64,000 bases of DNA from a virus. The position numbers were made by a program, and so were the translations under genes. How positions within the stretch are numbered: the stretch's first letter is position 1; every line of letters starts with the position of its first letter. This document shows, in pieces, positions 3,556 through 53,627 of the stretch. The notes beneath the pieces were generated by a model. It ran no database searches, had not been told where the DNA came from, and saw nothing but the letters and a program-made list of their open reading frames with translations. The stretch lies in IMG/VR virus record IMGVR_UViG_3300008012_000024, positions 1-64,000 of that record; one strand, 5' to 3'.

Positions 3556-3556
3556 T

Positions 3557-5699: not shown

Positions 5700-8600
5700 T
5701 TATCCGTAAGTAACGTAATATTCTGGTGCAGACCCAGAGGTAACAAAGGCGGTATGTCTAAATCCAGCAGAAATCATTTTTACACTTGCTTTATGTCTAA
5801 ATGAATTACCAGCATTAGGTTCCATTAAATGTGGAAACTCAATCCTATTGGTATTTATTGTCGATTTTTGCCCCAATTGTCTATTTGAATTATCACCCCA
5901 CGACCAAGCAGATCCGTTAAATTTTACTGCTGCAGTATGTGTCTCACCACAAGAAACACCTTTCCATTGCCCAATATCAAGTTCATAATTTCCAGAAACG
6001 AATGTATTAGAAACTAATGTTGGAGAACTTCTAGAATTTTGATTATTTAAACCTAATTGCCCATCATCATTTCTTCCCCACAGATATAAAGATCCATCAT
6101 CTTTAATTGCAGCACTATGATATCCACCAGCAGAAATTGACTTCCAATGGTTATTAGTTCCCACTTGCTGCGGTGTATCATAATATTGTTGCACATCGTT
6201 ACCAATACCCAATATTCCTTCTCTACCAGAAACATTACCATTAGTAAGATAATTTCCACCCCATGCCCACAATGTTCCATCCTTTTTAAGTGCTAATGTA
6301 TGATTTCTTCCTGCTGATACTGTTAACCAATCTTCATCAGTTCCAACTTGAGTAAAGGTGTTTCTATCTGAAGTATCACCCAATCCAAGTTGCCCATAAG
6401 TATTGTTCCCAGTAGCCCAAAGAGTGCCATTATCTTTAATTGCCATAGTATGAAATCCTTTCCCAGAAACTTGAACCCAATCAACATCAAAATTAACAGG
6501 TGTTGGTGTGGATGTAGAAGTATTACTTCCATTACCTAATTGTCCAGCCCCATTAGCACCCCAAGTATATAAAATCTTTTGTGTAGATATCAATGCAGAA
6601 TGTTGTAATCCAGCAGATATAATTTTTATACGAGTAAATTGAGTACCTAAAGCTGTTGAGTTTGGTACAGTAATAGCACCACCAGCATTACCATCACCCA
6701 ACTGCCCATCACTGTCTGCTCCCCAACTATACAAAACTCCTTCTCTAGTTACTGCTAGTGTGTGATATCCTCCACATTTAACATCTTTCCAACTATCCTT
6801 TGCTTGAGTATTAACATCATAATGATAATAAAATGATCCAAAATCAGTTGTAGATGATCCATTACCTAATTGCCCCAAAGCATTATCACCAGTAGTAACT
6901 AATCTATCACCAATATATTGATCTATAAACCATTTTTCAGTAATAAAGTGATCTGTTAATTCTCCTTCATCCGAGTAATAATTTTGTGCATCAGGTACTG
7001 AACCTGCAAGTGGAGCGTTCCAGAGTATTGTTGGTGAACCACCCTCTATAGAATGAAGATCGGTAAAATTTTGATCATCATATTGTGTAGACTCAGAACC
7101 ACTGTAAAACTGAATAGATGATTGTGTTCCAACATTATTTGAAATATACAAAAGAACACTTGAATAATTCCATCCTCTATTTTGTTCCAGTACAGTTGCA
7201 ATTAAACCAGCTGCTAGTGGACATGCTGAACTACTACCAGTAAATGAATTATCATATGAAATTTCAGAAAGATTATTCCCATCATAAGAATAAGCTGTAC
7301 CAGGATGCCTTTCATATAAAAAAGAATAACCACTAATAGCACCATCCTGTGCTGTTGCTGCAATAGTTAATTCACCTGGTGCATATGCGTCTACCGCATT
7401 TCCCATATTACTATAGTATACTTTTCTTTCTCTACCTTCATTATCATAGTTAGAATCTAAAGCTCCAATACAAATTGTTCTGTAAGTAACACTACCATCA
7501 TTATTGTTCACTTTTCCTATCTGTCCAGGAAACCCTTTTCTATTAACAGTAAGAGTATAATTACGCCCCCCATATTGTGCAATAGATTGAGCCAATGTTT
7601 GATTTGCAGTTGGGTAGATGTAATTATTATAATCTGGGTGTTCTGATTTCACCATTTTTTGATTTTCATTCCCTGAAGCATGTACAAAGATTACTCCAGA
7701 ATCAATAAGTTCTTCACCTGCTTGAGATTCAGAATTATCTACCATTTCACATTGAAAAAGAGTATTTGGTTCTGTGAAATGGGTTAGAAATCTGGGACTT
7801 GCTCCCCAATCTACACTTCCTGATCCATCATCAATATCATATTGTTGTCCTCCACCACCCAAAGTTCCCGATCTAAAATAATAATAACCAGTAAGCAGTG
7901 CTGATAATGGAAGTCTAAAACCCCAACTATTGCTGGAAACGGTTGGATTTTTTGAATCATCAGATGTTCTATTTGGTTTATATAAATGAAATAATTTCAA
8001 CATATCAAAATAATTTTCAAATCCAAGACCATAGGTACTATACACATCTACATACCACTTATTTGCATTATATGCCCATCCATGCCATTTACCATATGCT
8101 TGTGATGCACAAGATGTGCCATGAGATGCACTACTAGGAATTTGGGGTACATTTCTATTTTGAAATGTACCATTACAATTAGCTCTCGTATATGAGGATG
8201 GAATTGAAATAACTGCTCCCCCTAAAATTGTAGTACTACTTCTACTGTTAACATTTCCCCACCACGATTTTGCGACTTGTTCTACGGGTACAGTAGTTCC
8301 ATCCCATCTAGTCTCTAATCTATTATTAGGATCAGCTTCAAAATAAGTTGGATCTAGATAATATGGTGCTTCCAAAACTAAGTCTAATAATTGACATGAT
8401 CCATTACTAGCACTTGCAGAAAAATTACTGTTTAAGACATTACCACCATCCCAATCATATGGTCCATATGGCCAATAACCTTGAGGTACTGGTGTCGATT
8501 GAAATGTACGAAAGTCTTGGAATTCTGCATGACCAAACCAACATTGATTATCACCAACTACGAGATCAACGTCTCTACCAGTTCCATTATTTTCGTTTAT

Positions 8601-9203
8601 TTGGTTGTTTTGATGTGAATTTGTAGAATAATTTGATATATTACCAAAATTTGATGCCGTGGCAAATGTAATACCCTTAGATTCATTTATCCAAGGATCC
8701 TCTTTCTGAGACATCCTGTACAATTGATATCCAGTTCTTCCAGTGTCCTCACCTATATTAGTTCTAGATGACAATTGACCATACAACCAAGTAGTATCTC
8801 CTCTATAATGCTTTGCACCGTGATTCCATCTGTAAGAAAATTCCACATTTTTGGGATTTACCAAATATGTTCCTCTATAAAACTGCGTATCAACATTGAC
8901 ATATTTTACTCTAGGATGTTCTTTTAGTGCTATAGCTTCCGAATCAGTTAATAAGTAAATAGCTCTTGTTTCACTGTGGAGTTTTTGATCAACACAATCA
9001 CAACAATCTGATGGAATATTATCATCTAAACTTCCATCTCTCATCAATTCTTCATGAATATATTGCCAATCTTCTGGTGTATAACATCCAATACAATACC
9101 TTTTTTTAACATCACCTTCAGGTTCTTTTTCTAAAGTATTTTTATAATTTAAAAAATCTTCATCGTCCTCAATGTGAGGTATTTTTAAGATATCATTATT
9201 CAT
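5700..9203 (-). CDS. Subtilisin-like serine protease fused to an RCC1 propeller
   Basis: 1167 residues. Residues ~75-110 resemble an I9-type propeptide. The S8 catalytic set can be read in order: Asp218 in VDLVVGDNQ, His361 in SASHGTSCAS, oxyanion Asn512 in VHASGNENQ, and Ser658 in FTGSSSACPLAAG. Spacing is longer than in a minimal subtilisin, with an insertion between Asp and His (~220-355). From ~770 to the end there are six or more RCC1 blades (LYSWGADSDGQLGDG, LYTWGANGAGQLGNG, LYLWGRNDDGQLGL). No signal peptide is visible, which fits a virion-borne protein. It could trim fibre proteins, degrade host surface proteins during entry, or be structural only. The fusion order is plainly encoded; the role is inference. 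Confidence 0.85.
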   Translation of the reverse strand: MNNDILKIPHIEDDEDFLNYKNTLEKEPEGDVKKRYCIGCYTPEDWQYIHEELMRDGSLDDNIPSDCCDCVDQKLHSETRAIYLLTDSEAIALKEHPRVKYVNVDTQFYRGTYLVNPKNVEFSYRWNHGAKHYRGDTTWLYGQLSSRTNIGEDTGRTGYQLYRMSQKEDPWINESKGITFATASNFGNISNYSTNSHQNNQINENNGTGRDVDLVVGDNQCWFGHAEFQDFRTFQSTPVPQGYWPYGPYDWDGGNVLNSNFSASASNGSCQLLDLVLEAPYYLDPTYFEADPNNRLETRWDGTTVPVEQVAKSWWGNVNSRSSTTILGGAVISIPSSYTRANCNGTFQNRNVPQIPSSASHGTSCASQAYGKWHGWAYNANKWYVDVYSTYGLGFENYFDMLKLFHLYKPNRTSDDSKNPTVSSNSWGFRLPLSALLTGYYYFRSGTLGGGGQQYDIDDGSGSVDWGASPRFLTHFTEPNTLFQCEMVDNSESQAGEELIDSGVIFVHASGNENQKMVKSEHPDYNNYIYPTANQTLAQSIAQYGGRNYTLTVNRKGFPGQIGKVNNNDGSVTYRTICIGALDSNYDNEGRERKVYYSNMGNAVDAYAPGELTIAATAQDGAISGYSFLYERHPGTAYSYDGNNLSEISYDNSFTGSSSACPLAAGLIATVLEQNRGWNYSSVLLYISNNVGTQSSIQFYSGSESTQYDDQNFTDLHSIEGGSPTILWNAPLAGSVPDAQNYYSDEGELTDHFITEKWFIDQYIGDRLVTTGDNALGQLGNGSSTTDFGSFYYHYDVNTQAKDSWKDVKCGGYHTLAVTREGVLYSWGADSDGQLGDGNAGGAITVPNSTALGTQFTRIKIISAGLQHSALISTQKILYTWGANGAGQLGNGSNTSTSTPTPVNFDVDWVQVSGKGFHTMAIKDNGTLWATGNNTYGQLGLGDTSDRNTFTQVGTDEDWLTVSAGRNHTLALKKDGTLWAWGGNYLTNGNVSGREGILGIGNDVQQYYDTPQQVGTNNHWKSISAGGYHSAAIKDDGSLYLWGRNDDGQLGLNNQNSRSSPTLVSNTFVSGNYELDIGQWKGVSCGETHTAAVKFNGSAWSWGDNSNRQLGQKSTINTNRIEFPHLMEPNAGNSFRHKASVKMISAGFRHTAFVTSGSAPEYYVTYG

Positions 9204-9204
9204 A

Positions 9205-12200
9205 TTAACTATTTTCTTCTAATTTTTCTATTCTAATCTCATGATTTTTTATAGATTCAATTAAAATCGGTATAATAGCATCATAGTTAACTGTTTTGGA
9301 CCCATCAGAATTAGTTTCAATAATTTGGGGTAAAACTTTTTCAACATCTTGTGCTATTAATCCAAGAGATGGTTTTTTACTTTCTTTCCAGTTAAATGCA
9401 ACTCCTTTTAATTGTTGCGTTATTCCTATAGGATCATTAATATTTTCAATATTAATTTTTGCTCTTACATCTGATAATGATGTAAAGGATTGTGAGGATA
9501 AATTTCCTGTAGATGGTTTGTAAAATAATTTAGTAGAATGAGTTGTAAGAATAGTAGTTATACCAGAGGTAACACTGGTAAAACCAATAGAATAGTCATT
9601 AGTATCAATACTAGTAGTAGGTAAATTCTCAATATTAAGTTCCCCTGCTCCACTACTAGATCCACCACTACCACCAACATCAGTTAAAATCGATGTTATG
9701 GCCCACTCATCTCCACCACTTGATGAGAACTGTACTTGTTCAACTTTAATGTAAACACCACTAGCAACTTTAGCATTTTCTGGAATTTCTGCTTGTACTT
9801 CTGTCCAAGCATTTGAAGCAGTAGCAGATTCATTAGTTCCAGCTCCACTTGTAACTCGTAATACTTTGTGGAATTGAGTCCAACCTACACCATCAAGGGA
9901 ATAATAAAGGAATAATTCTTCACCATTATCTGGACCTTCATACCAATTTCTACATACATGGAATGAAAATGTATTGGAATTTTTTAAGTATATTCTATTT
10001 GGTGTAATAACTTTTCTATCTGCACTAATATTAGGGGAACCTTCATCAAAAACACATATTGGAGTGTATTGATTTATCAAACCATCAGTTGATGATGTTG
10101 GTAAATTCACTGCACCTATTGTGTTATATTGGGCAATAGTAGTTGGCCATGCGTTATGAAAATAAGCACTAGCATAATTTGAAAAATCTAAAGCGGCAAA
10201 GGAACTATTAGTATTGGAAGAATAAGATCTTATGTAAACTGAACTCACCAGGTAGTGGTCGATGTTAGCACCACTAGATGATTGCTTTAGTCTTATGAAA
10301 ACTCCACCAGAGTTTTTAGCACCATCGGGAACTTTAAATACATTTCTTATCCATCTAAGACCATTTTGGGAAGAGCTATTAAACCTACCCCTCTCCCCAA
10401 TCTCATTCCAACCCGTAGTGCCATTATAAGAATATTCCAGTATTACTTCTTCCAAATCATCTGGTTGTTCACCCCAACCTCCTACTCCACCAGGAAGAGA
10501 CCAGAATTCAACCAATTCTGAAGATGCTAAAAATATTTTATTTCTAGTAGTGATAGTTCTCGTTTCAGTAGAACCAATACTACCTCCAGACGTACCAAAT
10601 TGAAAAACGTAATCATTGGATTGTATCCAAGGTAATGGTGTTGATGAAACATTTCCAAAATCAGAAAATGCATCAGTTAATGATCTTTGATATACAGTGC
10701 CTCTCATAACATTAGAGGTATTTGTTGCATCGAGTATAAGAGTTCCCGATCCACCACCTCCACCACCTATACCACCAGTATTTGGAGAAGTGATTTGTAT
10801 TGCTAATGCACTTATAGCCCAGTTATCAAAGGCAGTTCCACTACTATTGTCTTGTTTGAATCTAACATATGCACCTTCATAATTTTGTATTGCAGTTGGT
10901 ACATCTACTTCTTGAAGAACCCACGTATTTCTTGTTATATCTGATGGTTGAATTGTAAAAATGTTAGTCCAGTTAGTGCCGTTGAACGAATATTGGAGTG
11001 ATAAACCTTCACCAGAATCTGGTTGTTCACCCCATCCACTTCCACCTTGATTGACATAGAAAAATATCTTAGATATGGTGGCAAAATAAACTTTTCTACT
11101 TGTTCTTACCCATCTTTCTCCAGTTGTCCCTGAAAATAATGCAATTGATGCTCCAGATGTAACATTAGATGTGTTACTCATGCCACTTATATTACCTACA
11201 GTGGTAAAAGATACACCATCAACTAAATTATTACTAACAGTTTGAGTATTAACAACCAAATCTCCTGGAATGTCAAAATTCATCAATGTATAAGGTGTTG
11301 TAGATGTTAATCCTTTAACACCTTGTGCACCTTGTGAACCAGTGTCACCCTTGATACCACCTAAACCTATTCTGCCTTGAACACCCTGCCTTCCCTGTGT
11401 TCCCTGAGTGCCCTGCTCACCCTCGACACCCTGCATTCCTTGTGAACCTCTCCTGCCTTGTAATCCTTGAGTACCCTGTACACCTTGAGTACCTTGATCA
11501 CCTTTTGAACCAGTTATACCTCTACCTTGAACACCCTGTACACCTTGAACTCCTTGTAAACCCTGAGTACCTTGGGGTCCCTGAATTCCACTATACCCTT
11601 GTATTCCTTGAGGACCTTGAGTTCCTTGAACACCCTGAGAACCTTGAGGGGATAATCCTCCTTGAATTCCCTGAAGTCCTTGTAAACCTTGAACACCTTG
11701 GAATCCTTGAGATCCTTGAACACCTTGAAAATTACTTAAAGGACCCTGAAGTCCTTGCATTCCCTGTAAACCTTGTGTCCCTTGAGTGCCCTGAAAATTA
11801 CCAAGCACACCCTGGATTCCTTGCAACCCTTGAATACCTTGAATACCTTGAGCACCTTGGAATCCTTCCGTTCCTTGTAAACCTTGAACACCTTGGTGAC
11901 TTCTTCCTTGTAATCCTTGTAATCCTTGGAATCCTTGCGAACCTTGTAATCCTTGAACGCCTTGCAAACCTTGCAAACCTTGAAATCCTTGAGTTCCCTG
12001 GAATCCCTGCATTCCTTGAAGACCTTGAGATCCCTGTATACCTTGAAAACCTTGAACACCTTGAAATCCTTGGGATCCCTGTGTTCCTTGAAAATTACTT
12101 AAAGGACCCTGAAGTCCTTGCATTCCTTGTAAACCTTGTGTTCCTTGATTACCTTGTAATCCTTGAACACCCTGTAATCCTTGAAGTCCTTGTAAACCTT

Positions 12201-12678
12201 GAACGCCTTGGAATCCTTGGGATCCTTGAACACCCTGTAATCCTTGAAGTCCTTGTAAACCTTGAAGTCCTTGTAATCCTTGAAGTCCTTGTAATCCTTG
12301 AACACCTTGAAAATTTCCTAAAGGACCCTGTAATCCTTGTCTTCCCTGTAAACCTTGTGTCCCTTGATTACCTTGCAATCCTTGAGTACCTTGAGTACCT
12401 TGAAAATTGCTCAAAGCACCTTGCAGTCCCTGAGTACCTTGTATTCCAGCACCTTGTGTTTCAGTTGCTCTTATCCAATATCTTTCCCCAGCATAACCAT
12501 CGACAGCAGCAACCATATACTGATCGCCAGCAGGTATGGGTTTATTGACTATCGAAGAAACTCCAACTAAAGGATCTCCAAGATCTGGTTCTGCTTGATT
12601 TAATCCCAGAAATTGATATCTATCGGATGTTATTCCCGTTCTCGCAAGTTTTTTAACTCTTTTAGAATTAAGGTCCAT
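9205..12678 (-). CDS. Collagen-like tail fibre with C-terminal S74 self-cleaving chaperone
   Basis: 1157 residues. A short head domain (1-75) is followed by ~380 residues of Gly-X-Y repeats, mostly GLQ/GTQ/GVQ, broken by NFQG interruptions. Then come three related beta-sandwich-like modules (each with WGEQPD.GE.L.L.YS.NG..W) between ~500 and 1000. The last ~90 residues form the intramolecular chaperone: SLSDVRAK gives the Ser1069/Lys1074 dyad of peptidase S74, then [27 protein letters not shown] and a terminal helix. S74 domains trimerise fibres and cleave themselves off. The gene lies 1 bp upstream of the protease-RCC1 gene. This is a side- or long-fibre candidate. Confidence 0.85.
11310..12455 (-). 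repeat. Collagen-like coding repeats (9-bp periodic)
   Basis: On the plus strand this shows as endlessly varied CCTTGTAATCCTTGAAGT units, i.e. tandem Gly-Leu-Gln-type codons read leftward. Near-identical blocks recur inside this gene and in the large fibre gene, including the GPLSNFQG interruption block. The periodicity is a coding feature, not a CRISPR array. Confidence 0.9.
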
Positions 12679-12686
12679 ATTTTATA

Positions 12687-13046
12687 TTACTGTTTTGCTG
12701 TTTCAAGTACACTAAGTATTATTTCAAGAACACCATTTTCATTTGCAGTGACTTGAATACTATCTGATGTTTCTAATGCCAATCTTCCATCAGAAACTAA
12801 ATTTGCACCATCATTAGGTGCTACTAAAAATTCATTGGCAAAAGCAAAATTTATAGTTGATTCCGTTGGTCTTGAATGAAATGCACTAACTGTATATGCA
12901 CTCAATGCAGCTCCAGAAGAAACATTGGTGACTTGACATAATATTACAATAGATGCAACACCAATTGGGCATGTGTATATACCAACAGTATCAGTAGTTA
13001 CTGGTACTCGTATTGTTCGGAATTTATTAAGTGCTACTACTGCCAT
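12687..13046 (-). CDS. Small virion structural protein
   Basis: 119 residues, beta-rich with no membrane helix: MAVVALNKFRTIRVPVTTDTVGIYTCPIGVAS followed by alternating strands and SDSIQVTANENGVLEIILSVLETAKQ. It sits between the two collagen-like fibre genes, abutting the upstream one (stop at 13047, start at 13046). The strand pattern (nucleation of a small jelly roll, then a short C-terminal helix) resembles the proteins at 58727-59089 and 62661-63011, which also look like fibre accessory or tip proteins. No family name is recognised. Probably a fibre-associated or decoration protein. Confidence 0.6.
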   Translation of the reverse strand: MAVVALNKFRTIRVPVTTDTVGIYTCPIGVASIVILCQVTNVSSGAALSAYTVSAFHSRPTESTINFAFANEFLVAPNDGANLVSDGRLALETSDSIQVTANENGVLEIILSVLETAKQ

Positions 13047-16000
13047 TTATCCTATTGCAAGAATTAAAGGTGTTACTGTATTTAACAGACTTTGACTGAA
13101 TGCTCTACCACTAATTGTTCCAGTAAGTTGATTAATTGTAAACTGATCACCAATTTTAAAGTTACCAGCTTGATCCGTACTGGTATAAACAACTTGACCA
13201 CCATTGTTCATTACAACTTCATTTTCAGTTATAACAACTCCACCCAATCCAGGTTTTGCTGAGAAAATATTATTTCCAGCACCAACCCATTCAAAAGAGT
13301 GTGATGATGTAATTTGTAAACTTACTCTACTAAAATAGACTGTTGTTCCAGCACTCACTGTGTTATTTAGATTCTGGTTTAGAACAATAGTTGAGATTCC
13401 TGCAACAGGTTTTGTTGCACTTTCAATAGAATAATATAATGGATAAATTATGGTAGTTGCAGCTGCACCGACTCCTCCACCACCAGTAAACGTAACAGTT
13501 GGATTTGTCAAATATTGACTACCAGCACTAATAATATCTACTGAGATTACTCTTCCACTTGCATCAATATTTGGTGATCCCTCACAAACAATTCCATTTG
13601 GTCCTTCTGGATCTGAAATTGTAACTATTGGAGGTGCTATGTATCCAGAACCACCATCAGTAACTTCAATTTTTTGAACTGTATAATACAACTCTCCAAA
13701 ATATAATGCTTGTCCATCATAAGGACGATAACTACCAACTCCACTAACTGTTATAGTATCTTGCTCAACTTCTGCTATTCCAGAAGAAATGCCAGTATAT
13801 CTATAAATTGATTTAGATGTTTCATCACCGACACCATCAGCAACCAATCCCAATCTACCAAATGAGGAGTTTGAGTTTGTTAAGTCACATTGCCCACCTG
13901 AAGCGGTGAAAATTGCTGTATCGTTACAAATGGTAAATATAGAAACTAACTGAGAATATGCTCCATTTGTAATAGAAACTCCAATTCCTCCTTGGTTATA
14001 CTGTGTATATGAATCAACACTCATCGTTCCTGTAACACCAATATCTGGTAAATCACCAGGTTCTGCCTCAAATCCATCAACTTTCATTCCGATAGAATTT
14101 GGAATAAAGTTTGTACAGTTTCTAGTATAAGGTCCTTGAACAATATTACCAACCCCTCTAGAATATGGTGGTGTAACAGTTCCGCCAACAACATAAGTAT
14201 GATCTACACTAGAAGTTCCGACATTTACCGTAAAAGTATCATTTTCATTATCTGCACTTAATACTCTAAATGCATAACCGTTATTTCCAGAAGGATATAT
14301 TGTTGTAGTAGCCGCTCCACTAGAACATGCAAATTCCATATCTCTCAAAGTAACCAAATCACCTGATCTTAACTTAATTCCAGGTGAAGTAATTGTAACT
14401 ATTCCTGTAGTATGTGTGTAATCTGCTTGTGTAATGTTCATTGAACGATTAACAACATACCCATCAGAAACATATGTGTGTGGAATAGTACTAACACCAG
14501 TATATACATCAAAAGAATTATCACCATGTACCTTAGTTACATAGAACTCATATCCAAAATATCCAGATGGGAATCTTGTTGTTGAAATAGATCCACCAGA
14601 GGAACATGAGAATAACAGGTCTCTAATTTCAACCAAATCACCAACGTTAGGTGTATATCCTAATGCTTTAAGAGTTGTTTTTCCAGATTCTTTTTCGTAA
14701 ACAGCACTAGAAATTCCTGAGAGATGATCAAATCCTTCTCCACGATTTCCAGGATATGTTGTATTGAATCCAATTGTTGAGAATGCTGTTGATCCTAAAC
14801 CAACTATATTGGTGACAACCCCAACACATGACCTCATTGCTGATGCAACATCAGTACAAGAATTAATCGTATTGTTAAATCCAGACTTATAATCAGATTG
14901 AATAGATAAATCTTTTACTTGAGTGAACTCAGATTGGAAGTTACTAACCTTTTTAACTGTTCCACCACTTTCATATGTATGAGGTAATACTGTTTTGCCA
15001 GTTACTACTTCAAATACATCATCACTAAGAACATCTTTAACTGGGAAAATATAACCAAAAGTTCCATCAGGATAAATTTCAGATGTGTAATTGGAAGTTA
15101 ACGTTCCACCATTTACATAATTGTGTGCTTTTGTTGTAGTTCCTGTATTTACTTCAACTTTATTAGAAACGTATAACGCTGGGTAATTTGATAAATTACC
15201 GTCACTAATTACTGTGGTTATAATTGCAATAATATTATCAATATTCGTTTGCACATCTGCACAAGAACTAGGATCTTGATTATCACCTGTCAGAGGATCT
15301 GCTGTAATCGTTAAATCTTTTACATTTAATTGATTTGTAATTGCTTTCTTAGCATAATCGCGAATACTATTAAATGCCGTTATAGATTCTGACTCCTCTC
15401 CAAGTAATCCATTTGTAATTGGTGCACCATTTGCATCAAAATATGCTCTGGTAGATTCTCTAATAAATTTATTAGTCCCATATCTAATATCCTTTTCGAG
15501 AGCATCTACAATAAATCCGATGTCTCTACGACACTTATTTTCTCCAGCAACAAAAATACCTGCATTAACATAAGTTGTTTTTAAGAGATCAAGATTTCCT
15601 GCATCAATTATTACAACAACTAAAGAAGTTAAAGTGTCAATTGCACTTTGTACATTAGCACATGAATCTGATGACTGATTATCTCCAGTCACTGGATCAG
15701 CAGTAATAGTTAAATCTGTTACCGTAAGTTGATTAGTAATTGCCTGCTTCATTAAATCTCTAGCGGCATTAAAAGCATCTATAGATGATGCTTCTTCACC
15801 AACCAATCCATTTGAAATTGGTGTTCCATTATTAAAATAGAGTTTAACAAATGATATTGAATAACTATTTCCACCAGTAAATACATCAGTTGAAACTGCG
15901 TCTACAAAATAACCAATGTCACGTTTACACTTAGTTTCTGTTGAAGAATCTGCAGGATTTTCTCCAGCCTGCATTGTATTCCAAGCACTATTAATGATCT

Positions 16001-46518: not shown

Positions 46519-49500
46519 CTACTTTTTTTCGCGTTCAATATCATAGTGCTTCAAATTATCAACAATAAGATTATGATAATACGGAGTAAGATTATAGTTA
46601 TCAATCAAATCTAGAAAAATTTCTTTAGATTCTTCAACTTTACCCCAGTACCAACCAGAAGATGCTTTTTCAAAAAGTAAACCAAGTCTTCCAGGATATT
46701 CAACATCATGTGTTGTTTTTGGAGAATCAAAATCAGATAAAGTCAAACCCTGGCAGGCAAATTGATAACAGTGACTCCACTGCGATCTTTTCTCATGGAA
46801 TCTTGCAAGCAAAAAGTATGCTTCTGGTCTAGTTGGTTTTATACATAACGCTTGCTGCAGTAATGATTCTGCTGTACCATCTCTTGTTCCTTGTTTATCA
46901 TAACAATGATGGCACTTAATTATTGCTTCATATTGCATATCTTCACTTTCAAACCTTTCAGCGGCTCTCAAGAAATATGAAAGTGCTGGTGCAGTGTGCC
47001 CTTCTTTTTCATACCATATTCCAAGGTTGTAATTTTTTTGTGCATCCTCACAATCTAAAGAATATTCATACAATAACTGCTCTAACTCAGTCCTTTCCCT
47101 TCCAATACTTTTTTTTTCTTCTACAATTTCAGTATCTTTTTCGGAAGTTACAGAAAGCAGTGCGCCAAGTGAAACATTGTTATTTTTCCACCAATCTGTG
47201 ACAAATTTATATGTTTCAACATGATGTGCTTTGTTTTTATCAGATAATCCCTCTTTCCCATAAAAAGTAGAAGGATGATTTTGATCTTCAACAAAAAGAT
47301 TTATAGAATAAACTTTACCAAGTCCATAGAAAATTACATTTTCTGGCATTGGATAAAAATTGGAGTTTGGAATATTTAAAGTATAAGTATTATTATCAAA
47401 ATAATGATCAATTATTTTTTTAGCATACCCTCTGGTTAAAATATATGCGGTTACAGACCAATCATACATTGATCTATCACGCAATCTCACTTCTTCCTGA
47501 CCATCTCGTACACAGCAGAGTTGAACACATTCAGCATCTTCTGGAAGACTTTGAATAAATTCTGTCCAAGAAAAATTCCAATCATTAACAGTCTCAAGGC
47601 TTAGATCATCTTCACAAAAGAATGCATACTCTTCATCAGTTTCATCATACCACTTTTTAATCATCTTGATATGAGATACTACACATCCCTTTGTACCATC
47701 ATCAAGTATATGTAACTGCTCTCCTTCTAATTTATCATCAGATTCAGAAAATCTCTTGGAAATTACACCAACAGTTTTTTCTACACCACAACTAAAAAAT
47801 TGTTTATTAAGTTTATTTCTCCGTTCAACACTTTCCTCTAAACTTATATAGTAAACGCTAGGAAAGTTTACAAATTTTATTTTGTTTGGTATCTCTTTAC
47901 TTTGATTCAATTTAAATGCCATTTCTTTCCATTTATTAAGGACAATATTGTGTGAATTATGATGGTGAACATTTACATTATCATCTTCACCGTCAATTTG
48001 ATATGATGCTTTAAAGGAAATATCTTCTAAAAAGAGAGGAATTACATAAACTTCATCACTCAATCCAAAGATAATAGTTTCAATAACTGGTACAATAGCC
48101 CAGTCTGGTCTGTATTCTACATCGTGACATTTGGAATCAAGATGGAATACATCATCATAATAATATGTATCAATCAATTTTTGTGCATATTTTCTACTAA
48201 TTAAGTATGCACATCCAGACCAATCACTCCATTCTCTAGTTTTAAATTTAATATCTAAACCATACTCATATTCTCTAAGTAAACAAAGTTGAACACATTC
48301 CCATTGTGGAGGTAAAGAGTTAAAAAACTCTTCCCATGTAAAGTCCCAATATTTTACAGATTCTAAGGAGATATCATCTTCACAGAAAAAAGCATATTCC
48401 TCTTCAGTGTCATTCAACCATTCTTTAATGGCCTTTAAATGAGAAGTTACTGGACCTCTACTACCAATACTTAATCGATGTAAGTACCCACTTTGAATTT
48501 GATGCTCACTATCATCATATTTTTTAAATATATGAGGAGTTATATGATCTTCTAGTATACCATACTCTGAAAATATTTTATATAAATTTTCTCTCCTCTC
48601 TTCAGAATGTTCAACACTAATAAAATTAACTGGTGGAAGATTTTTTAATTTATTTTTATCCAGTTGATGTTGGTTATTATCAATAGATGCTGTGTAATAA
48701 CGACCACCTTCAGAAGAAACTATCCATTTAGTTTCACACTTAACGTATGCTCCAGATACTTCATCCACTTTAGCACGGTTAATCTGATTGTGTTTCATTG
48801 CTAAAACGTAATCAGTTTGCCATTCTAAATCATCACCACTATAACAACCAGAAAGATTTGCTCTTATAATATCTCTTATTTCTCTTTGCTCATAGGTTGA
48901 ACGAAAGTTTTCAAATCGTTTATTGTCTGGATGAGGCATGTGAATTAGATGATAATCAAAATCTAATTTCTTGTGCTCTAATCCATAAATCTCTAATCTT
49001 TTATAAATCTCATCATCTTCAAATGAGTAAAAATCTGAAAACGATTCGTTATATCCACCAATATTAATAAAATGTTCCTTTGAAACAAAAAGAAGACCTG
49101 TCAAATACCTATAGTATGAACTATAAGAATTGTAATAATCTTGTATTTGCTCAACACTCATCTTCATTTTATCAAATTTATGAAGACCACTCTCTTCATC
49201 ATAAAATTCTGGACTTTTTATAGAAGATTTTCCACTAACAAATGAATTTTCATCAATCTTATATTTGTTGAAAAAGGAATAATATGGACTCATTATATAA
49301 TCACAATCAACCTTAAGTATGTAATCTCCAGTCGCTTGTTGAGCAGCCAAGTTTAATGGTTGTGGTTGATTAAAATACTCAACATCATCTACACGAATGA
49401 TTTTAATCCTTTCGTCCAGTTGAGTTAGATTTTTTAATGGTTTGTCAGATTTCCAATCAACAATAATAATTTCTGATATTTCTGAGTAATTTAACCAAGA

Positions 49501-49563
49501 ATTTAATGAAACTCTTAATGCTTCATTTCTATTTTTACAAGCACATATTAATGAAATCTTCAT
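46519..49563 (-). CDS. Four-module glycosyltransferase: GT2-GT25-GT25-TPR
   Basis: 1014 residues. Residues 1-230: a GT2 domain (SLICACKNRNEAL, then the DCD motif at 86-88, and the GGYNESFSDFYSFEDDEIYKR acceptor-site block). Residues ~294-540: a GT25-like domain (SVEHSEERRENLYKIF, EYAFFCEDDISLES with Glu375-Asp377, then SGCAYLISRKYAQKLI). Residues ~550-780: a second GT25-like domain (SLEESVERRNKL, CEDDLSLET with 631-633, TAYILTRGYAKKII). Residues 817-1014: TPR-like helices (NYNLGIWYEKEGHTAPALSYFLRAAERFE, RPEAYFLLARFHEKRSQW). The two GT25 domains are clear tandem duplicates. The fusion could build a short oligosaccharide by itself. Overlaps the GDPD-like gene by 4 bp. Confidence 0.85.
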   Translation of the reverse strand: MKISLICACKNRNEALRVSLNSWLNYSEISEIIIVDWKSDKPLKNLTQLDERIKIIRVDDVEYFNQPQPLNLAAQQATGDYILKVDCDYIMSPYYSFFNKYKIDENSFVSGKSSIKSPEFYDEESGLHKFDKMKMSVEQIQDYYNSYSSYYRYLTGLLFVSKEHFINIGGYNESFSDFYSFEDDEIYKRLEIYGLEHKKLDFDYHLIHMPHPDNKRFENFRSTYEQREIRDIIRANLSGCYSGDDLEWQTDYVLAMKHNQINRAKVDEVSGAYVKCETKWIVSSEGGRYYTASIDNNQHQLDKNKLKNLPPVNFISVEHSEERRENLYKIFSEYGILEDHITPHIFKKYDDSEHQIQSGYLHRLSIGSRGPVTSHLKAIKEWLNDTEEEYAFFCEDDISLESVKYWDFTWEEFFNSLPPQWECVQLCLLREYEYGLDIKFKTREWSDWSGCAYLISRKYAQKLIDTYYYDDVFHLDSKCHDVEYRPDWAIVPVIETIIFGLSDEVYVIPLFLEDISFKASYQIDGEDDNVNVHHHNSHNIVLNKWKEMAFKLNQSKEIPNKIKFVNFPSVYYISLEESVERRNKLNKQFFSCGVEKTVGVISKRFSESDDKLEGEQLHILDDGTKGCVVSHIKMIKKWYDETDEEYAFFCEDDLSLETVNDWNFSWTEFIQSLPEDAECVQLCCVRDGQEEVRLRDRSMYDWSVTAYILTRGYAKKIIDHYFDNNTYTLNIPNSNFYPMPENVIFYGLGKVYSINLFVEDQNHPSTFYGKEGLSDKNKAHHVETYKFVTDWWKNNNVSLGALLSVTSEKDTEIVEEKKSIGRERTELEQLLYEYSLDCEDAQKNYNLGIWYEKEGHTAPALSYFLRAAERFESEDMQYEAIIKCHHCYDKQGTRDGTAESLLQQALCIKPTRPEAYFLLARFHEKRSQWSHCYQFACQGLTLSDFDSPKTTHDVEYPGRLGLLFEKASSGWYWGKVEESKEIFLDLIDNYNLTPYYHNLIVDNLKHYDIEREKK

Positions 49564-50039
49564 TCAGACAACTCTCTCCTATAATAATTACAATTATCTG
49601 TACAGATACCTTTTGTTGATAATATTCTATCGTATCTTTCTTCGTATTTATTGTAATAAGAAATGGACTCTGGTAGAACAATGATTGAGTTATTATATGG
49701 TATTTGTCCTACTAATACCCACCCAATACCCCTACTGGTTAAAGCATACCTATCATTTTCATGATAGAAGTAATGTAAATTCATGACCGTAGAAGAGCAG
49801 AACTCTAAGGATTCACGATCTTTACAGTGAATCCAGAGTCTTTCTCTATGCTTATAAAGCCACCCAAGTTTCAATGGATATTGAGGTTTATCATGTCCAA
49901 GAAAAAGTTGTTTATCTTTCGATCTCAAATCAATTTCTACGTCATATCCCATCGATAAGGCTTCATCAATGTAATCTGGACTATTTTCCCTTTCAGGATT
50001 AGGACCATCTACATTTCCCCTATGAGCAATGATAATCAT
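49560..50039 (-). CDS. Minimal GDPD-like phosphodiesterase
   Basis: 159 residues, about two thirds of a normal glycerophosphodiester phosphodiesterase. The full catalytic string is present: HRGN (His6-Arg7), EN (Glu18-Asn19), EIDLR (Glu35, Asp37) and GHD (His49), i.e. the HR...EN...ExD...H pattern on a TIM-barrel start. Later strands are WIHCKDRES and IGWVLVGQIPYNNSIIVLPES. Such short forms occur in surface-polysaccharide clusters. It could hydrolyse a phosphodiester on a sugar or glycerol product or remodel a phospho-linked side chain. It starts 1 bp after the RLP stop, so the two are coupled. Activity inferred. Confidence 0.7.
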   Translation of the reverse strand: MIIIAHRGNVDGPNPERENSPDYIDEALSMGYDVEIDLRSKDKQLFLGHDKPQYPLKLGWLYKHRERLWIHCKDRESLEFCSSTVMNLHYFYHENDRYALTSRGIGWVLVGQIPYNNSIIVLPESISYYNKYEERYDRILSTKGICTDNCNYYRRELSE

Positions 50040-50040
50040 A

Positions 50041-51279
50041 TCAAAACTCTAAAACCCATTCTGGAAGAGATCCACCACCAGTTTCATATCCCCACTTATC
50101 AATAGCAGCACGGAATTCCTCTCCAGGATTCTTATCAATCGCTTGTCGCATTGCTAAAGCACCAGAGAGAGTGCCACCAGGGTGTCCATGAACTGCACCA
50201 CCACAGTTTGCTAGGAAATCAGTTCCAAACTTCTCAGCAGTAGTGTTGACGATACCTGGATGCATACCACAACTGAGTGCTGGTAGGACATTTCTATGAT
50301 GCAAAGTATCCATCACGGTATGCAGTTCTGCTTCATCATCACTCAAATATCCACCCCACATACCAGCATGGATAGTATCAACACCACAGAGACCTGCAAG
50401 GTCACAAAGAACACTCCAATCGATACCAAAGTTATGACGCTTATCAGTCAGAATCTTATCTCCACTCTTCTGATAATGAACAAACATTGGAAGATCCATC
50501 TTCCTCACGGAATTGTAAACACCAAGTCCACTCCAGAAATTAATGTGAATACCATTACCACCATTATTTGCAACAAACTTTGCACGATCAAGGATAGTAT
50601 GGTGATCACCATTAATGCAGAAACAGTAAATTACTCCCCTACCACATTCATTAACAAGATTTGAAATAAGTTCTACACGATCTTCAAGACGGCAAAAAGA
50701 TGGATTGGAAAGAATCTCATCTTCTTTAATAAAATCTACTCCACCATCGAGAAGTTCTTTAACCATCTCCGAAAGAGTTTGTGGAGAGATTCCAGTTTTT
50801 GGTTTAACAATAGCACCAGAAAGTGGTTTATCGTAACGATTAACAAACCTACGGATACCATCAATACCATACTTAGGTCCCAAAAACTGTGCTTCAACAT
50901 CAGCAGGAAAATCAAGTTTTCTGAGTCTACATGTTTTGAAGACATCAATATCAAGTTGTCCACCCATTAACTGACACATCAGATGAGAAATACCATCACC
51001 TTCCCAATCAGTATTCACTTTAGGGAAACCAATCTTTACTTCACCAGAAGTCATGTTAGTTAATTTTTCTTCATCGTCGTAAATGACGCATGATGCAAGT
51101 TCAAAAAGATCATCACTTTCCCAACGATTACGAACTTTTGGATTACCCACACTTTGTCCAATTGCAAGTGCCCAAGCAGCATCTCGCAAGTTGCCTATAT
51201 TTTCATATGTTTCGATGTAAAATGTAGCAACAACACAACGATTTTTTTCTTGTTCTGTTAATTCTCTAAAAAATTTCAT
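50041..51279 (-). CDS. RuBisCO-like protein (form IV-type)
   Basis: 412 residues with the RuBisCO large-subunit barrel. AIVKPKTG (Lys159, Lys161) equals catalytic Lys175/177. GGVDFIKEDE (Lys185, Asp187, Glu188) equals the carbamylated Lys201 and Mg ligands 203/204. FVHYQ (His268) equals His294, but Arg295 is Tyr269. TIHAGMWGGYL keeps His304 (His327) but loop-6 Lys334 is Tyr311. LSCG keeps Ser337 (Ser379), and CGG (360-361) equals Gly403/404. Asn123 and Thr65/Trp66 are not matched. Losing Lys334 and Arg295 rules out normal carboxylation, while the enolising core remains, as in form IV RLPs. It is richer in G+C (hand counts ~35-53% per line) than most flanking genes. It overlaps the methyltransferase stop by 4 bp and sits 1 bp before a GDPD-like gene. 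Confidence 0.88.
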   Translation of the reverse strand: MKFFRELTEQEKNRCVVATFYIETYENIGNLRDAAWALAIGQSVGNPKVRNRWESDDLFELASCVIYDDEEKLTNMTSGEVKIGFPKVNTDWEGDGISHLMCQLMGGQLDIDVFKTCRLRKLDFPADVEAQFLGPKYGIDGIRRFVNRYDKPLSGAIVKPKTGISPQTLSEMVKELLDGGVDFIKEDEILSNPSFCRLEDRVELISNLVNECGRGVIYCFCINGDHHTILDRAKFVANNGGNGIHINFWSGLGVYNSVRKMDLPMFVHYQKSGDKILTDKRHNFGIDWSVLCDLAGLCGVDTIHAGMWGGYLSDDEAELHTVMDTLHHRNVLPALSCGMHPGIVNTTAEKFGTDFLANCGGAVHGHPGGTLSGALAMRQAIDKNPGEEFRAAIDKWGYETGGGSLPEWVLEF

Positions 51280-51950
51280 ACTTTAACCTCATTTTTTATA
51301 AAAACCAATATCTCATCACCAGCAAATCCATATGTTTTATTAGAACCATATGTCTTTACTTGAGTAATATTACAATAATACTTATCATTATTATATTGTT
51401 CAAGAAAATTTGCATATGATTGGATTGCGTAGTCAACGTCTTCAACTATAAGAATTCCTCCAGGATTTAAATACTTATGAACATTTGAAATTACTTTTAC
51501 CTGATCCCAAAACTCATGGCTGGCATCGTCTATAATAATATCAAATTTAGTACCTGTTTTTTCAAATGCTTCAAGAATTGATTGTTCATCCCTAACATTT
51601 ATATAATCATAATGAACGTTATGAAGATTATCATTTTTAGCAAGTTGGACAAAATCATATTGATAGCGAGTTTCTGTACAGTGTTCCAATTTACAATCCC
51701 AACCATATAGAGTAGCCTGCGAAAAATACTCTCTCCACATCTTCATAGATGCATTTTTATATATACCAATCTCACCAAACACAATGTCTTTATGTCTAAG
51801 ATTAGAAAATAAAAAATTATAAAAAGGAGTATAGGAATGACGCCCCATTTCATATACTAATGAAGATTTGTCTGTTTTATATTTTTCACCAATATGACAT
51901 AAATCAGTTGGAGATGTGAAACTATTGTAAAGTACTTGATTGAATTTCAT
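51276..51950 (-). CDS. Class I SAM methyltransferase (sugar-O-methyltransferase-like)
   Basis: 224 residues. DLCHIGEKYKTDKSSLVYEMGRHSYTPFYNFLFSNL and KDIVFGEIGIYKNASMKMWREYFSQATLYGWDC give motif I. FDIIIDDASHEFWDQVKVISNVHKYLNPGGILIVEDV carries motif IV (IDDASH) and the post-II strand. The DDxSH...H motif with the YKTDK start recalls macrocin/rhamnosyl O-methyltransferases (MycE/CmcI type), which use a metal to methylate a sugar hydroxyl. Translationally coupled to the RLP (stop/start overlap 4 bp) and to the cupin (4 bp). Substrate unknown. Confidence 0.75.
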   Translation of the reverse strand: MKFNQVLYNSFTSPTDLCHIGEKYKTDKSSLVYEMGRHSYTPFYNFLFSNLRHKDIVFGEIGIYKNASMKMWREYFSQATLYGWDCKLEHCTETRYQYDFVQLAKNDNLHNVHYDYINVRDEQSILEAFEKTGTKFDIIIDDASHEFWDQVKVISNVHKYLNPGGILIVEDVDYAIQSYANFLEQYNNDKYYCNITQVKTYGSNKTYGFAGDEILVFIKNEVKV

Positions 51951-52273
51951 AATTTAACCTCAAATTTGTCTGATGGTATAGATGGTGTTTTTACACATAC
52001 TACTGTGCAGTCTTCCAAAAACACTGGATCTGCAACTTCATATCTATCTAGTACGAATACATCACCACTGTTTATTTCTTTATTTTGAATTATCATTTTT
52101 CCAGAAACTAGAACATTATATTCTATACCCTTTTTATGATAATGTGCAGGCCACTCTTCACCCTTTTTATGATTTAAAACTGCCACTTCAAAATCTTTTG
52201 TTCTAAAAATAGAGGGTTCAAAATCACCAATGATCCACCCTCTAGTGTAATCGGAAAGTTTAGTAATTTTCAT
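51947..52273 (-). CDS. Small cupin
   Basis: 108 residues. The cupin motif 1 HYHKKGIEYNVLVSGKM supplies His44, His46 and Glu51; motif 2 ends NKEINSGDVFVLDRYEVADPVFLED. Single-domain cupins of this size act as sugar isomerases/epimerases or as metal sensors in polysaccharide loci. The missing second His of a full four-ligand site leaves the metal doubtful. Overlaps the nucleotidyltransferase start by 14 bp. Likely a partner in sugar modification. Confidence 0.6.
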   Translation of the reverse strand: MKITKLSDYTRGWIIGDFEPSIFRTKDFEVAVLNHKKGEEWPAHYHKKGIEYNVLVSGKMIIQNKEINSGDVFVLDRYEVADPVFLEDCTVVCVKTPSIPSDKFEVKL

Positions 52274-52982
52274 ATTTCATAAGAAAGGAATCTAAATCTT
52301 CTGGAACCCCAACTGGATTATGTTGCCAATTTGGAATATGATGAATACCAACTTTTAACTCCTTCTTTATCATATGATTGTAAGAAGGTCCAACATAAAA
52401 TTCACCATTAGGTGCTCTATCATCACATTCTATCATACTCTCAGTACTTTGTACAAAGTACTTACCCTTTCTCCAGTAATGAATACCATTTAAAGAAATG
52501 TCACTCAATACCTCCTTTTCTTTTATCAATTTAACAAAACCATTTTTATCAATTTTAGCATAACTATTTTTAGGAGTAGTTGTGCTATAAGTTACAACAA
52601 CACCATCATACTTATAATATCTAGCAGTTGTCAAGAAAAGATCAGAATCCCACCACATAATTTGATCACAATTGGCAATAACAAGTTCATCCTCATTATT
52701 AATATAATCTTTAAATAAAAGACAACTAGATGCAGGACCTTCGGTTGTTTCTTCTACACTGATTATTTTTGCATCGGGAAGAATGTTGTGAAGTAATGTG
52801 CAAACCTGATCATAATAACTATCCTTTCTGATTACAAAATGATATGTACCATTCATACCAAGAGACTCAATAGCTCTTTGTATCATTGGAACACCGTGTA
52901 TATCAATTAAAGGTTTTGGTATTTTGTAAGTATCTCTAGGAAATCTAGTTCCTTCACCCGCCATTGGTATTAAAATGTTCAT
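52260..52982 (-). CDS. Sugar-phosphate nucleotidyltransferase
   Basis: 240 residues. MNILIPMAGEGTRFPRDTYKIPKPLIDIHGVPMIQRAIESLG holds the GxGTRF and PKPL signature of NTP transferases. VIANCDQIMWWDSD is the metal/sugar aspartate region, and ISLNGIHYWRKGKYFV plus NGEFYVGPSYNHMI match the RmlA/GlmU-like tail. It would couple a sugar-1-phosphate to NTP. Length is typical of capsule-cluster members. The neighbouring cupin, methyltransferases and RLP suggest the activated sugar is unusual. Confidence 0.8.
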   Translation of the reverse strand: MNILIPMAGEGTRFPRDTYKIPKPLIDIHGVPMIQRAIESLGMNGTYHFVIRKDSYYDQVCTLLHNILPDAKIISVEETTEGPASSCLLFKDYINNEDELVIANCDQIMWWDSDLFLTTARYYKYDGVVVTYSTTTPKNSYAKIDKNGFVKLIKEKEVLSDISLNGIHYWRKGKYFVQSTESMIECDDRAPNGEFYVGPSYNHMIKKELKVGIHHIPNWQHNPVGVPEDLDSFLMKYENY

Positions 52983-53627
52983 TCACTTTACCTCAATAAA
53001 CTTATTGTATCTCTTTTTTCTAGCAAATCCAATTCCCCAATCTTGAGGACATGCATTTTCAATAACATCCCATCTAGTTTTGTCCAAATTATTAATAAAT
53101 TTATTTGGACCTGGATGACACGTTGTGTCATGTAAACCAACTATTCCATTCGGTGCTAACAATTTAGTATATTCCCAATCAGTCAATACTTGATTAATAC
53201 TATGCCATCCATCAATAAAAATGAAATCAAATTTTTTAATTCCCCAAAACTGGTCAAACATACCAACATTTTCATCAATATATGAACTATTGTTCTGAAT
53301 GGTATGAATGTTATTATCTGGATCCCTTATAAAAGACCTATCTTCAAGATCAAGACCAACGTATATAGTCTCATGTCTTTTATTTGAAGTTAATACATGA
53401 ACAAATGATTCTTCATCATTTCTAGCAATACCAATCTCAAGAATTGCTTTAGCATGATCTTTTACTTTTAAAAATTGTTCTAAAAGATTTGATCTATTAC
53501 ATTCAGTTACTTCTTTACAATTATCAGATCTTACATAATTTTTAAAAAAATCATTTTGCTCATAATCTAAATCATCATATTCAGTAAAAGTTCTGATATC
53601 ACAAACAAGATCTTTTTTCCATTTCAT
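52983..53627 (-). CDS. Class I SAM methyltransferase (Methyltransf_24-like)
   Basis: 214 residues. AILEIGIARNDEESFVHVL (motif I), TIYVGLDLEDRSF (motif II acidic end), FDFIFIDGWHSINQVLTDWEYTKLLAPNGIVGLHDTTCHPGPNKFI (motif IV with IDGWHS and motif V). The IDG.HSY..V..D......L...G....HD pattern matches Methyltransf_24 sugar or small-molecule methyltransferases. N-terminal part poorly conserved. It is the second methyltransferase of the cassette and ends 1 bp before the nucleotidyltransferase. Confidence 0.75.
   Translation of the reverse strand: MKWKKDLVCDIRTFTEYDDLDYEQNDFFKNYVRSDNCKEVTECNRSNLLEQFLKVKDHAKAILEIGIARNDEESFVHVLTSNKRHETIYVGLDLEDRSFIRDPDNNIHTIQNNSSYIDENVGMFDQFWGIKKFDFIFIDGWHSINQVLTDWEYTKLLAPNGIVGLHDTTCHPGPNKFINNLDKTRWDVIENACPQDWGIGFARKKRYNKFIEVK

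Follow-up and report, generated by a model that had tools for sequence, protein, structure and literature searches.

The window analysed here is a 64,000-nucleotide stretch (positions 1 to 64,000) of the linear IMG/VR virus record IMGVR_UViG_3300008012_000024, which is 74,106 bases long. On its minus strand, at 50041-51279, lies an open reading frame with an ATG start and no internal stops that encodes a 412-residue RuBisCO-like protein (RLP), matching RuBisCO_large (PF00016) with an E-value of 1.1e-42. The complete RuBisCO-fold protein described in the initial annotation, which had left the strand unstated, is confirmed, with KPK at residues 159–161, IKEDE at 184–188, IHAG at 303–306 and NCGG at 358–361, numbered via the alignment. 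The gene overlaps the upstream methyltransferase gene by 4 bp (51276-51279), and a single base, 50040, separates it from a downstream GDPD-like gene, as had also been noted.

The neighboring genes lie on the same strand and match the glycan cassette proposed for this locus. A sugar-1-phosphate-type nucleotidyltransferase (NTase; 52260..52982, 240 aa) carries the GEGTRF...PKP and D106-Q107 motifs and matches Pfam NTP_transferase (1.8e-8), phrog_3980 (2.6e-56) and PDB 4evw (9.6e-13), its NTase family matches being weak only. The single-domain cupin (51947..52273, 108 aa) is identified by an HxHx4Ex6G motif and by phrog_24762 (6.4e-32), its Cupin_7 match (4.6e-4) being under the Pfam cut-off; across 69 aligned sequences, H44, H46, E51 and G58 each have a conservation of 93% or more. 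Between cupin and RLP is an accessory methyltransferase (Methyltransf_24/31, 51276..51950), and Pfam also identifies a second methyltransferase (Methyltransf_24, 52983..53627) and a multidomain glycosyltransferase with GT2, GT7C and GT25 domains (46519..49563). The minimal GDPD-like phosphodiesterase (mini-GDPD; 49560..50039, 159 aa) has no Pfam match. Its residues H6 R7, E35, D37 and H49 (H-R, E-x-D, H) are invariant in 44 sequences, a profile match to a GDPD structure was obtained at 1.5e-4, and the top PDB matches of its predicted model are mostly GDPDs (best 1zcc, 2o55, 7e0v and 2pz0), with Foldseek E-values that never bettered 0.003 for this short protein. The product is therefore classified as a GDPD by a catalytic motif set in a predicted GDPD-type barrel. 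A Pfam scan of ten genes of the window revealed no mtn-type gene.

The region is not an assembly artifact. Positions 48500-53500 align over the entire 5,001 bp to three other IMG/VR contigs (L003, L004 and L042) at 99.92–100% nucleotide identity, and contig L002 matches 3,463 bp (48500-51962) at 99.9%. Both RLP junctions are thus found again in four further contigs at 99.9–100% identity, which rules out the RLP stretch being a chimera joined to phage DNA. Comparison with a 95%-identical relative (L006) gave a dN of 0.026 and a dS of 0.65, values that mark the window RLP gene as one under selection. Its G+C content is 36–42% in 600-base windows, versus approximately 28–33% in most surrounding windows. 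Across the viral loci (best 80 of 238), GC3 of the RLP averages only 0.022 over its neighbors and is the highest of any gene in 3/80, so composition is weak evidence for transfer, and a recent transfer read from it was rejected.

Several T4-type genes are encoded in the record: a single-strand binding protein (phrog_224, 5.9e-127), a baseplate tail tube cap (1.4e-75) and a baseplate hub (3.1e-43), along with a PhoH-like protein. The 58 phage records that match the hub protein are from Synechococcus, Prochlorococcus, other cyanophages or marine phages, with about 30% identity among the matches listed. By these homologies the RLP-bearing virus is a T4-like phage (Pantevenvirales), in agreement with the initial annotation. 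A search for the major capsid protein gp23 found nothing in the 74 kb record, itself a fragment, and gave matches in 6 of the 50 RLP-bearing viral records examined. One very large record, L057 (IMGVR_UViG_3300017917_001342, 518,643 bases), has a T4-type gp23 match and carries the RLP module. Elsewhere in the window, two large minus-strand proteins (2188-5005 and 5700-9203) match phage 'regulator of chromosome condensation' families and are probably tail or fibre proteins.

The active site was compared in an alignment of 102 sequences, comprising the window protein, 80 viral sequences (best 80 of 238) and 21 from genome-collection loci. A form I sequence supplied the motif-based numbering, which, like the residue roles, we take to hold. 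Equivalents of K175, K177, K201, D203 and E204 (window K159, K161, K185, D187 and E188) are conserved in 102/102, and the window RLP also retains S336, equivalent to S379, and G360-G361. E60, T65, N123 and H294 are replaced by G, N, G and Q in all 102 (window G41, N46, G107 and Q270), and K334 and G380 by Tyr and Cys in the 101 of 101 sequences reaching them (window Y311 and C337). Invariant blocks over 42 diverse members are GQSxGNPxxR, GGQxDI, QxSG, GMxGGY and SCG. As judged by these residues, the family has retained the enolising core and lost the carboxylation residues, which supports the form-IV-type reading of the initial annotation, and it is very unlikely that the RLP is a carboxylase. 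Phosphate binding is not uniform, because 12 of the 81 viral sequences have Gln at the H327 position and the R295/H298 positions deviate in six viral sequences and one other. Given the conserved GG and S379 equivalents and the altered R295/H298, our guess is that the substrate phosphate would bind at what we take to be the P1 site.

An AlphaFold2 model of the RLP (pLDDT 93.3, pTM 0.91) gives a confident prediction of the RuBisCO large-subunit fold. Its best structure matches reached a Foldseek E-value of 6e-34 and a VIA Z of 43.4, with form III RuBisCO and MtnW as the closest solved structures. IV-Photo structures (1tel, Z 40.3; 2qyg, Z 40.5) are not closer than other folds, and VIA-align left the form III, MtnW and Photo folds unseparated (Z 40–43). 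In BFVD, none of the 50 matches listed (of 912) exceeds a TM of 0.40 by query length, so those listed hold no RuBisCO-like fold, and no PHROGs family matches the RLP at E 1.

Form III RuBisCOs are the best matches in sequence as well as in structure, and 5 of the 50 RLP-bearing viral records examined carry genes for the photosystem reaction centre (PF00124), so some of these viruses infect cyanobacteria. Both observations would fit a working RuBisCO that boosts host carbon fixation, a reading we consider to have almost no chance of being right. Bona fide RuBisCOs (forms I–III) keep K334 and N123 intact, while the window protein has Tyr311 and Gly107 instead; the replacements of N123, H294 and E60 are found in all 102 aligned sequences, and the RLP and sugar NTase also occur together in non-phototroph genomes, for example Legionella. 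We reject a carbon-fixation gene on the active-site residues. The initial annotation had set best hits to forms I–III with an intact loop 6 against its assignment; the hits are indeed form III, but loop 6 is not intact, K334 being Tyr in 101/101, and the tree sets the family apart from the form I and form III sequences it includes.

That tree, a quick maximum-likelihood analysis of 56 rows, included 12 references (form I, four form III, MtnW, OiaX and five other RLPs). The RLP family forms one side of a branch against the 12 references with an SH-aLRT of 99, the DeepYkr, Photo and GOS types being outside the tree; form I and MtnW sit on long branches and were flagged by the program as unsure in place. 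The viruses make up one nested group (support 100) together with five genome-collection rows. Outside this group are Elusimicrobia, Azospirillum with Legionella, and Verrucomicrobia with archaea and Pelagibacter. By its active site the window protein is classified as a form-IV-type RLP, and by this tree it belongs to a clade distinct from the 12 references tested. The Azospirillum genome has three RuBisCO-family genes: a form I, another RLP type and the present RLP.

To our knowledge, RLPs of known function act in sulfur salvage or sugar-acid breakdown. PMC5893883 describes the same functions. Phages could conceivably have captured an RLP belonging to one of the catabolic classes already described (MtnW, OiaX or DeepYkr) for sulfur salvage or sugar-acid use, within the same superfamily and with MtnW structures among the best folds (Z 42.5 and 42.2). 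We judge this highly improbable. NCBIfam scores are far below the cut-offs for MtnW (121.9 of 513.6 for TIGR03332; 162.9 of 409 for NF007095) and OiaX (156.4 of 700). In the tree, which covers MtnW and OiaX of these classes, the family is split from both with an SH-aLRT of 99, MtnW lying on a very long branch that is unsure in place. The OiaX and MtnW sequences we aligned have another residue at K177, which the family retains.

In IMG/VR, relatives of the RLP were found by tblastn (E 1e-3) in 238 stretches with a single-sequence query and in 297 with an alignment query. The viral loci studied are the best 80 of the 238, at 56–100% identity, and therefore the remaining stretches may hold more distant members. 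A one-per-species genome collection yielded 21 RLP loci, the gene being carried by a few bacterial and archaeal genomes, and 50,697 deposited phage records gave no RLP match at E 1e-3. The RLP was present in 4/22 genomes of the Legionella genus set and 2/197 Pelagibacterales genomes drawn. Matches of at least 60% identity were found in 1/149 for the phylum of the Elusimicrobia genome, 2/236 for the phylum of the Nanoarchaeia genome and 1/82 for the order of the Azospirillum genome; other matches in those three groups are at or below 34% identity, save short pieces of 35–44%. By these homology searches the RLP family is rare in the genomes searched. Two contigs binned as bacterial genomes look viral: L082, a Crocinitomicaceae MAG, has an RLP identical in the tree columns to that of viral contig L045, and the first gene of L100, a Sphingobacteriales MAG in the genome contigs, reads by eye as PhoH. 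Not all 21 genome-collection loci would then be cellular.

Several of the neighbors named in the initial annotation are conserved in related contigs. Within four genes of the RLP, the 80 viral loci (best 80 of 238) contain the NTase in 77, the cupin in 65 and the GDPD in 58, as well as the Methyltransf_24 family of 52983..53627 in 30 and the Methyltransf_24/31 of 51276..51950 in 9. A six-frame search within 3 kb of the same loci found the NTase in 77, the cupin in 66 and the GDPD in 62. Two of the three loci that miss the NTase (L002 and L024) are contig ends on that side, and the third is L081. Within 3 kb at the 21 genome-collection loci, the same search found the NTase in 19, the GDPD in 14 and the cupin in only 5, which leaves the cupin outside the minimal pair; the two loci with no partner at all (L087 and L102) are both on contigs shorter than 4 kb. 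After dereplication at 90%, 33 loci had within two genes the NTase in 29 (4.2 expected), the cupin in 28 (3.6) and the GDPD in 20 (3.3); at 75%, 15 loci had 14 (2.0), 13 (1.8) and 10 (1.4), respectively, the expected counts being taken from other positions in the same loci. These gene neighborhoods show a strong link of the RLP with the NTase.

Azospirillum and an Elusimicrobia genome have all four genes together in the order GDPD-RLP-cupin-NTase, and Pelagibacter has GDPD-NTase-RLP-NTase. In Legionella nautarum, maceachernii and drozanskii (L098, L099 and L101), RLP-NTase adjoins a divergent LicD gene. In Pelagibacter the RLP has an NTase homologue on either side (noted at L091:4930-5667 and at L094:9219-9959), and the upstream homologue seems by eye to have lost a GxGTR-like motif and may be inactive. 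Nine RLP loci from one group of phage contigs (L026, L027, L032-L035, L037, L038 and L072; in L032 at 11241-13935) encode, directly downstream of the RLP, an APH-type kinase together with a cyclase for sugar phosphates that resembles dehydroquinate synthase and has 4p53 (2.9e-78) as its closest PDB match. In L032 an SDR comes next. The NTase and RLP trees share two groups, Azospirillum with Legionella and Verrucomicrobia with Nanoarchaeia and Pelagibacter. Their distances correlate with an r of 0.69 over 40 loci, a value matched in 0/2000 permutations and to which shared genome descent can add. In the NTase tree 11/42 inner branches are well supported, and the RLP-linked NTases are not monophyletic, NTases of RLP-less deposited phages falling among them.

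The deposited phages have NTase genes in 19 records (18 of them Synechococcus phages), GDPD genes in 16 and cupin genes in 3, and where inspected these genes sit in glycan cassettes that have no RLP. The Synechococcus phages Bellamy and SynMITS9220M01 encode an NTase-RpiB fusion (PF02502, 3.9e-32 and 4.1e-33), with the cupin alongside. Scanning with the cupin of Bellamy yielded 72 loci. Of their 60 distinct cupin places, 49 have the NTase-RpiB fusion, 11 an NTase without RpiB and none an RLP; counted by locus, the figures are 59, 11 and 0, while one further locus has no NTase and another no cupin match. The RpiB domain of the fusion matched 0/101 RLP loci at E 1e-5, and PfkB, HAD and GHMP query genes likewise found no match in the 101, these RpiB and kinase searches being one-sequence queries over limited flanks. 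Eight of the 11 RpiB-less places were inspected and have HAD-like and weakly PfkB-like genes upstream; Pfam, applied to L283 only, placed HAD over the cut-off and PfkB (4.8e-5) under it. The alternation with RpiB may partly reflect phage lineage, since the scan of close relatives used one cupin clade, and the RLP is not necessarily a one-for-one substitute for RpiB, because the sister modules inspected also contain PfkB-like and HAD genes, which likewise go unmatched in RLP loci. Phage S-CAM9 has its NTase fused to a different HAD phosphatase, an arrangement shared by RLP loci L014, L073 and L074. An RLP-less cupin-NTase cassette contains an HddA-like heptose 7-phosphate kinase gene (L284:8305-9357; NCBIfam 291 bits, cut-off 600), a hint of heptose chemistry in sister modules. 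Together, the gene content of sister modules and RLP loci suggests that sugar phosphates are interconverted before a nucleotide is transferred.

The cupin and the GDPD each allow another reading. In methionine salvage, the product of the RLP MtnW passes through a phosphatase to the dioxygenase MtnD, which is a cupin. By analogy, the RLP could make an enediol that the adjoining cupin cleaves or rearranges, the pair shortening or remodelling the sugar before activation, which we regard as unlikely. The cupin directly adjoins the RLP in 57/80 viral loci (best 80 of 238) with HxHx4Ex6G intact, a Bacillus plasmid has mtnW and a cupin gene in one cluster, and R. palustris has an RLP and a cupin that act in sequence (PMC5893883). 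However, the Pelagibacter and Legionella loci lack a cupin in the 3 kb around the RLP, the matches to dioxygenases were all weak (phrog_7851 'cysteine dioxygenase', 0.0036; a quercetin dioxygenase structure, 0.14), and the cupin does not need RLP chemistry, because the same family adjoins NTase-RpiB fusions without an RLP.

Equally improbable in our estimate is a module that makes or edits a phosphodiester-linked substituent (polyol- or acid-phosphate) in place of a glycosyl donor, for which the NTase would activate, a LicD-like transferase add and the GDPD remove. The GDPD-like gene within 3 kb of 62/80 viral loci (best 80 of 238) and 14/21 genome-collection loci fits this, as does LicD (PF04991, 1e-42) next to RLP-NTase in L. 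nautarum, with close homologues at two other Legionella loci. Against it, the viral cassettes examined have ordinary glycosyltransferases, and a phmmer search with the L. nautarum LicD (one sequence, E 1e-3) matched only three Legionella genes across 101 loci. LicD as a general RLP partner was rejected on this distribution.

The reading we prefer, at roughly even confidence, is that the RLP would act on sugar phosphates as a metal-dependent isomerase or tautomerase and supply the NTase, which would yield an activated glycan building block, in a module with the small cupin and mini-GDPD. Mg2+ would be held by D187, E188 and carbamylated K185, and a phosphorylated keto-sugar would be enolised. 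Reprotonation on another carbon would make the enzyme an isomerase, epimerase or tautomerase, the presumed job of RpiB in sister modules. The cupin might finish the RLP product, and the NTase would join the sugar phosphate to a nucleotide. Glycosyltransferases and methyltransferases of the cassette would then attach and trim the activated sugar, and the mini-GDPD would cut a phosphodiester, perhaps removing or recycling such a substituent. The benefit is likely an altered host surface, against superinfection, or a decorated virion. The keto-sugar phosphate chemistry suggested in the initial annotation is strengthened by the NTase link and by RpiB taking the place of the RLP in sister modules, and is still something we infer.

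More broadly, and a little less confidently, we propose that the RLP could be a previously undescribed class dedicated to building nucleotide-activated sugars, with the four-gene module mobile among phages, bacteria and archaea and interchangeable with RpiB, and that phage copies could form part of the unassigned marine RLP diversity. Global Ocean Sampling placed 65 RuBisCO homologues in new groups outside known clades, according to PMC1821046. The phage protein may, as the initial annotation proposed, belong to or explain a marine clade such as IV-GOS. The substrate of the RLP should be directly testable in vitro, because the module consists of four small genes and sister RpiB modules exist. 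If true, a tie between this RLP clade and the synthesis of nucleotide sugars would mean a biosynthetic role for the RuBisCO fold and show how its enolising core is reused. It would also caution against reading every viral 'rbcL' call as a carbon-fixation gene, since such calls can be glycan genes. Landfill phages carry viral 'rbcL' auxiliary genes, one set of which clusters with RbcL-like proteins, and rbcL was also found in an IMG/VR sample; PMC12607003 lists these genes under CO2 fixation, with no gene neighborhood given in the sections at hand, and we liken them to the RLP by description only. Our literature search, covering parts of papers, turned up none that treats the four-gene module or places an RLP together with a cupin and a nucleotidyltransferase, nor a phage RLP in the available portion of PMC9875498. 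What sets the proposed RLP clade apart is an active-site signature and a set of gene partners of its own.

In structural comparison, the RLP shares the architecture of form III RuBisCOs (Pyrococcus horikoshii 2cwx; Thermococcus kodakarensis 1geh/3a12) across 381 residues (2cwx_E, Z 43.4, rmsd 2.3), with KPK, K201-D203-E204, S379 and the GG loop in common. The RLP is only 26% identical, however, and carries E60G, T65N, N123G, H294Q, K334Y and G380C, so carboxylase activity would be unexpected. MtnW, the 2,3-diketo-5-methylthiopentyl-1-phosphate enolase, has the RLP fold (2zvi, Z 42.5) and an enolase-type core, and its gene cluster, like the RLP module, includes a cupin, along with a phosphatase; the aligned MtnW differs from the RLP in having other residues at K177, R295 and H327. 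OiaX, the 3-oxo-isoapionate-4-phosphate decarboxylase, is likewise an RLP in a sugar pathway and its cluster holds an RpiB/LacAB isomerase, but the OiaX used has D, A and Q at 60, 177 and 327 and its neighbor is a four-carbon acid sugar kinase.

The closest working analogy, by description only, is the DeepYkr RLP of R. rubrum and R. palustris. PMC5893883 describes it as a 1,3-isomerase that acts on a ketose phosphate, 5-methylthioribulose-1-P; its gene in R. palustris is RPA2169, and the next locus number, RPA2170, belongs to the cupin that acts on the DeepYkr product. Unlike the RLP module, DeepYkr has no NTase or GDPD partner described in the part of the source at hand. The modules of Bellamy and SynMITS9220M01 differ in having RpiB and no RLP, with PfkB-like and HAD genes upstream in related contigs, but they resemble the RLP module in combining NTase, cupin and GDPD of the same families within a glycan cassette.
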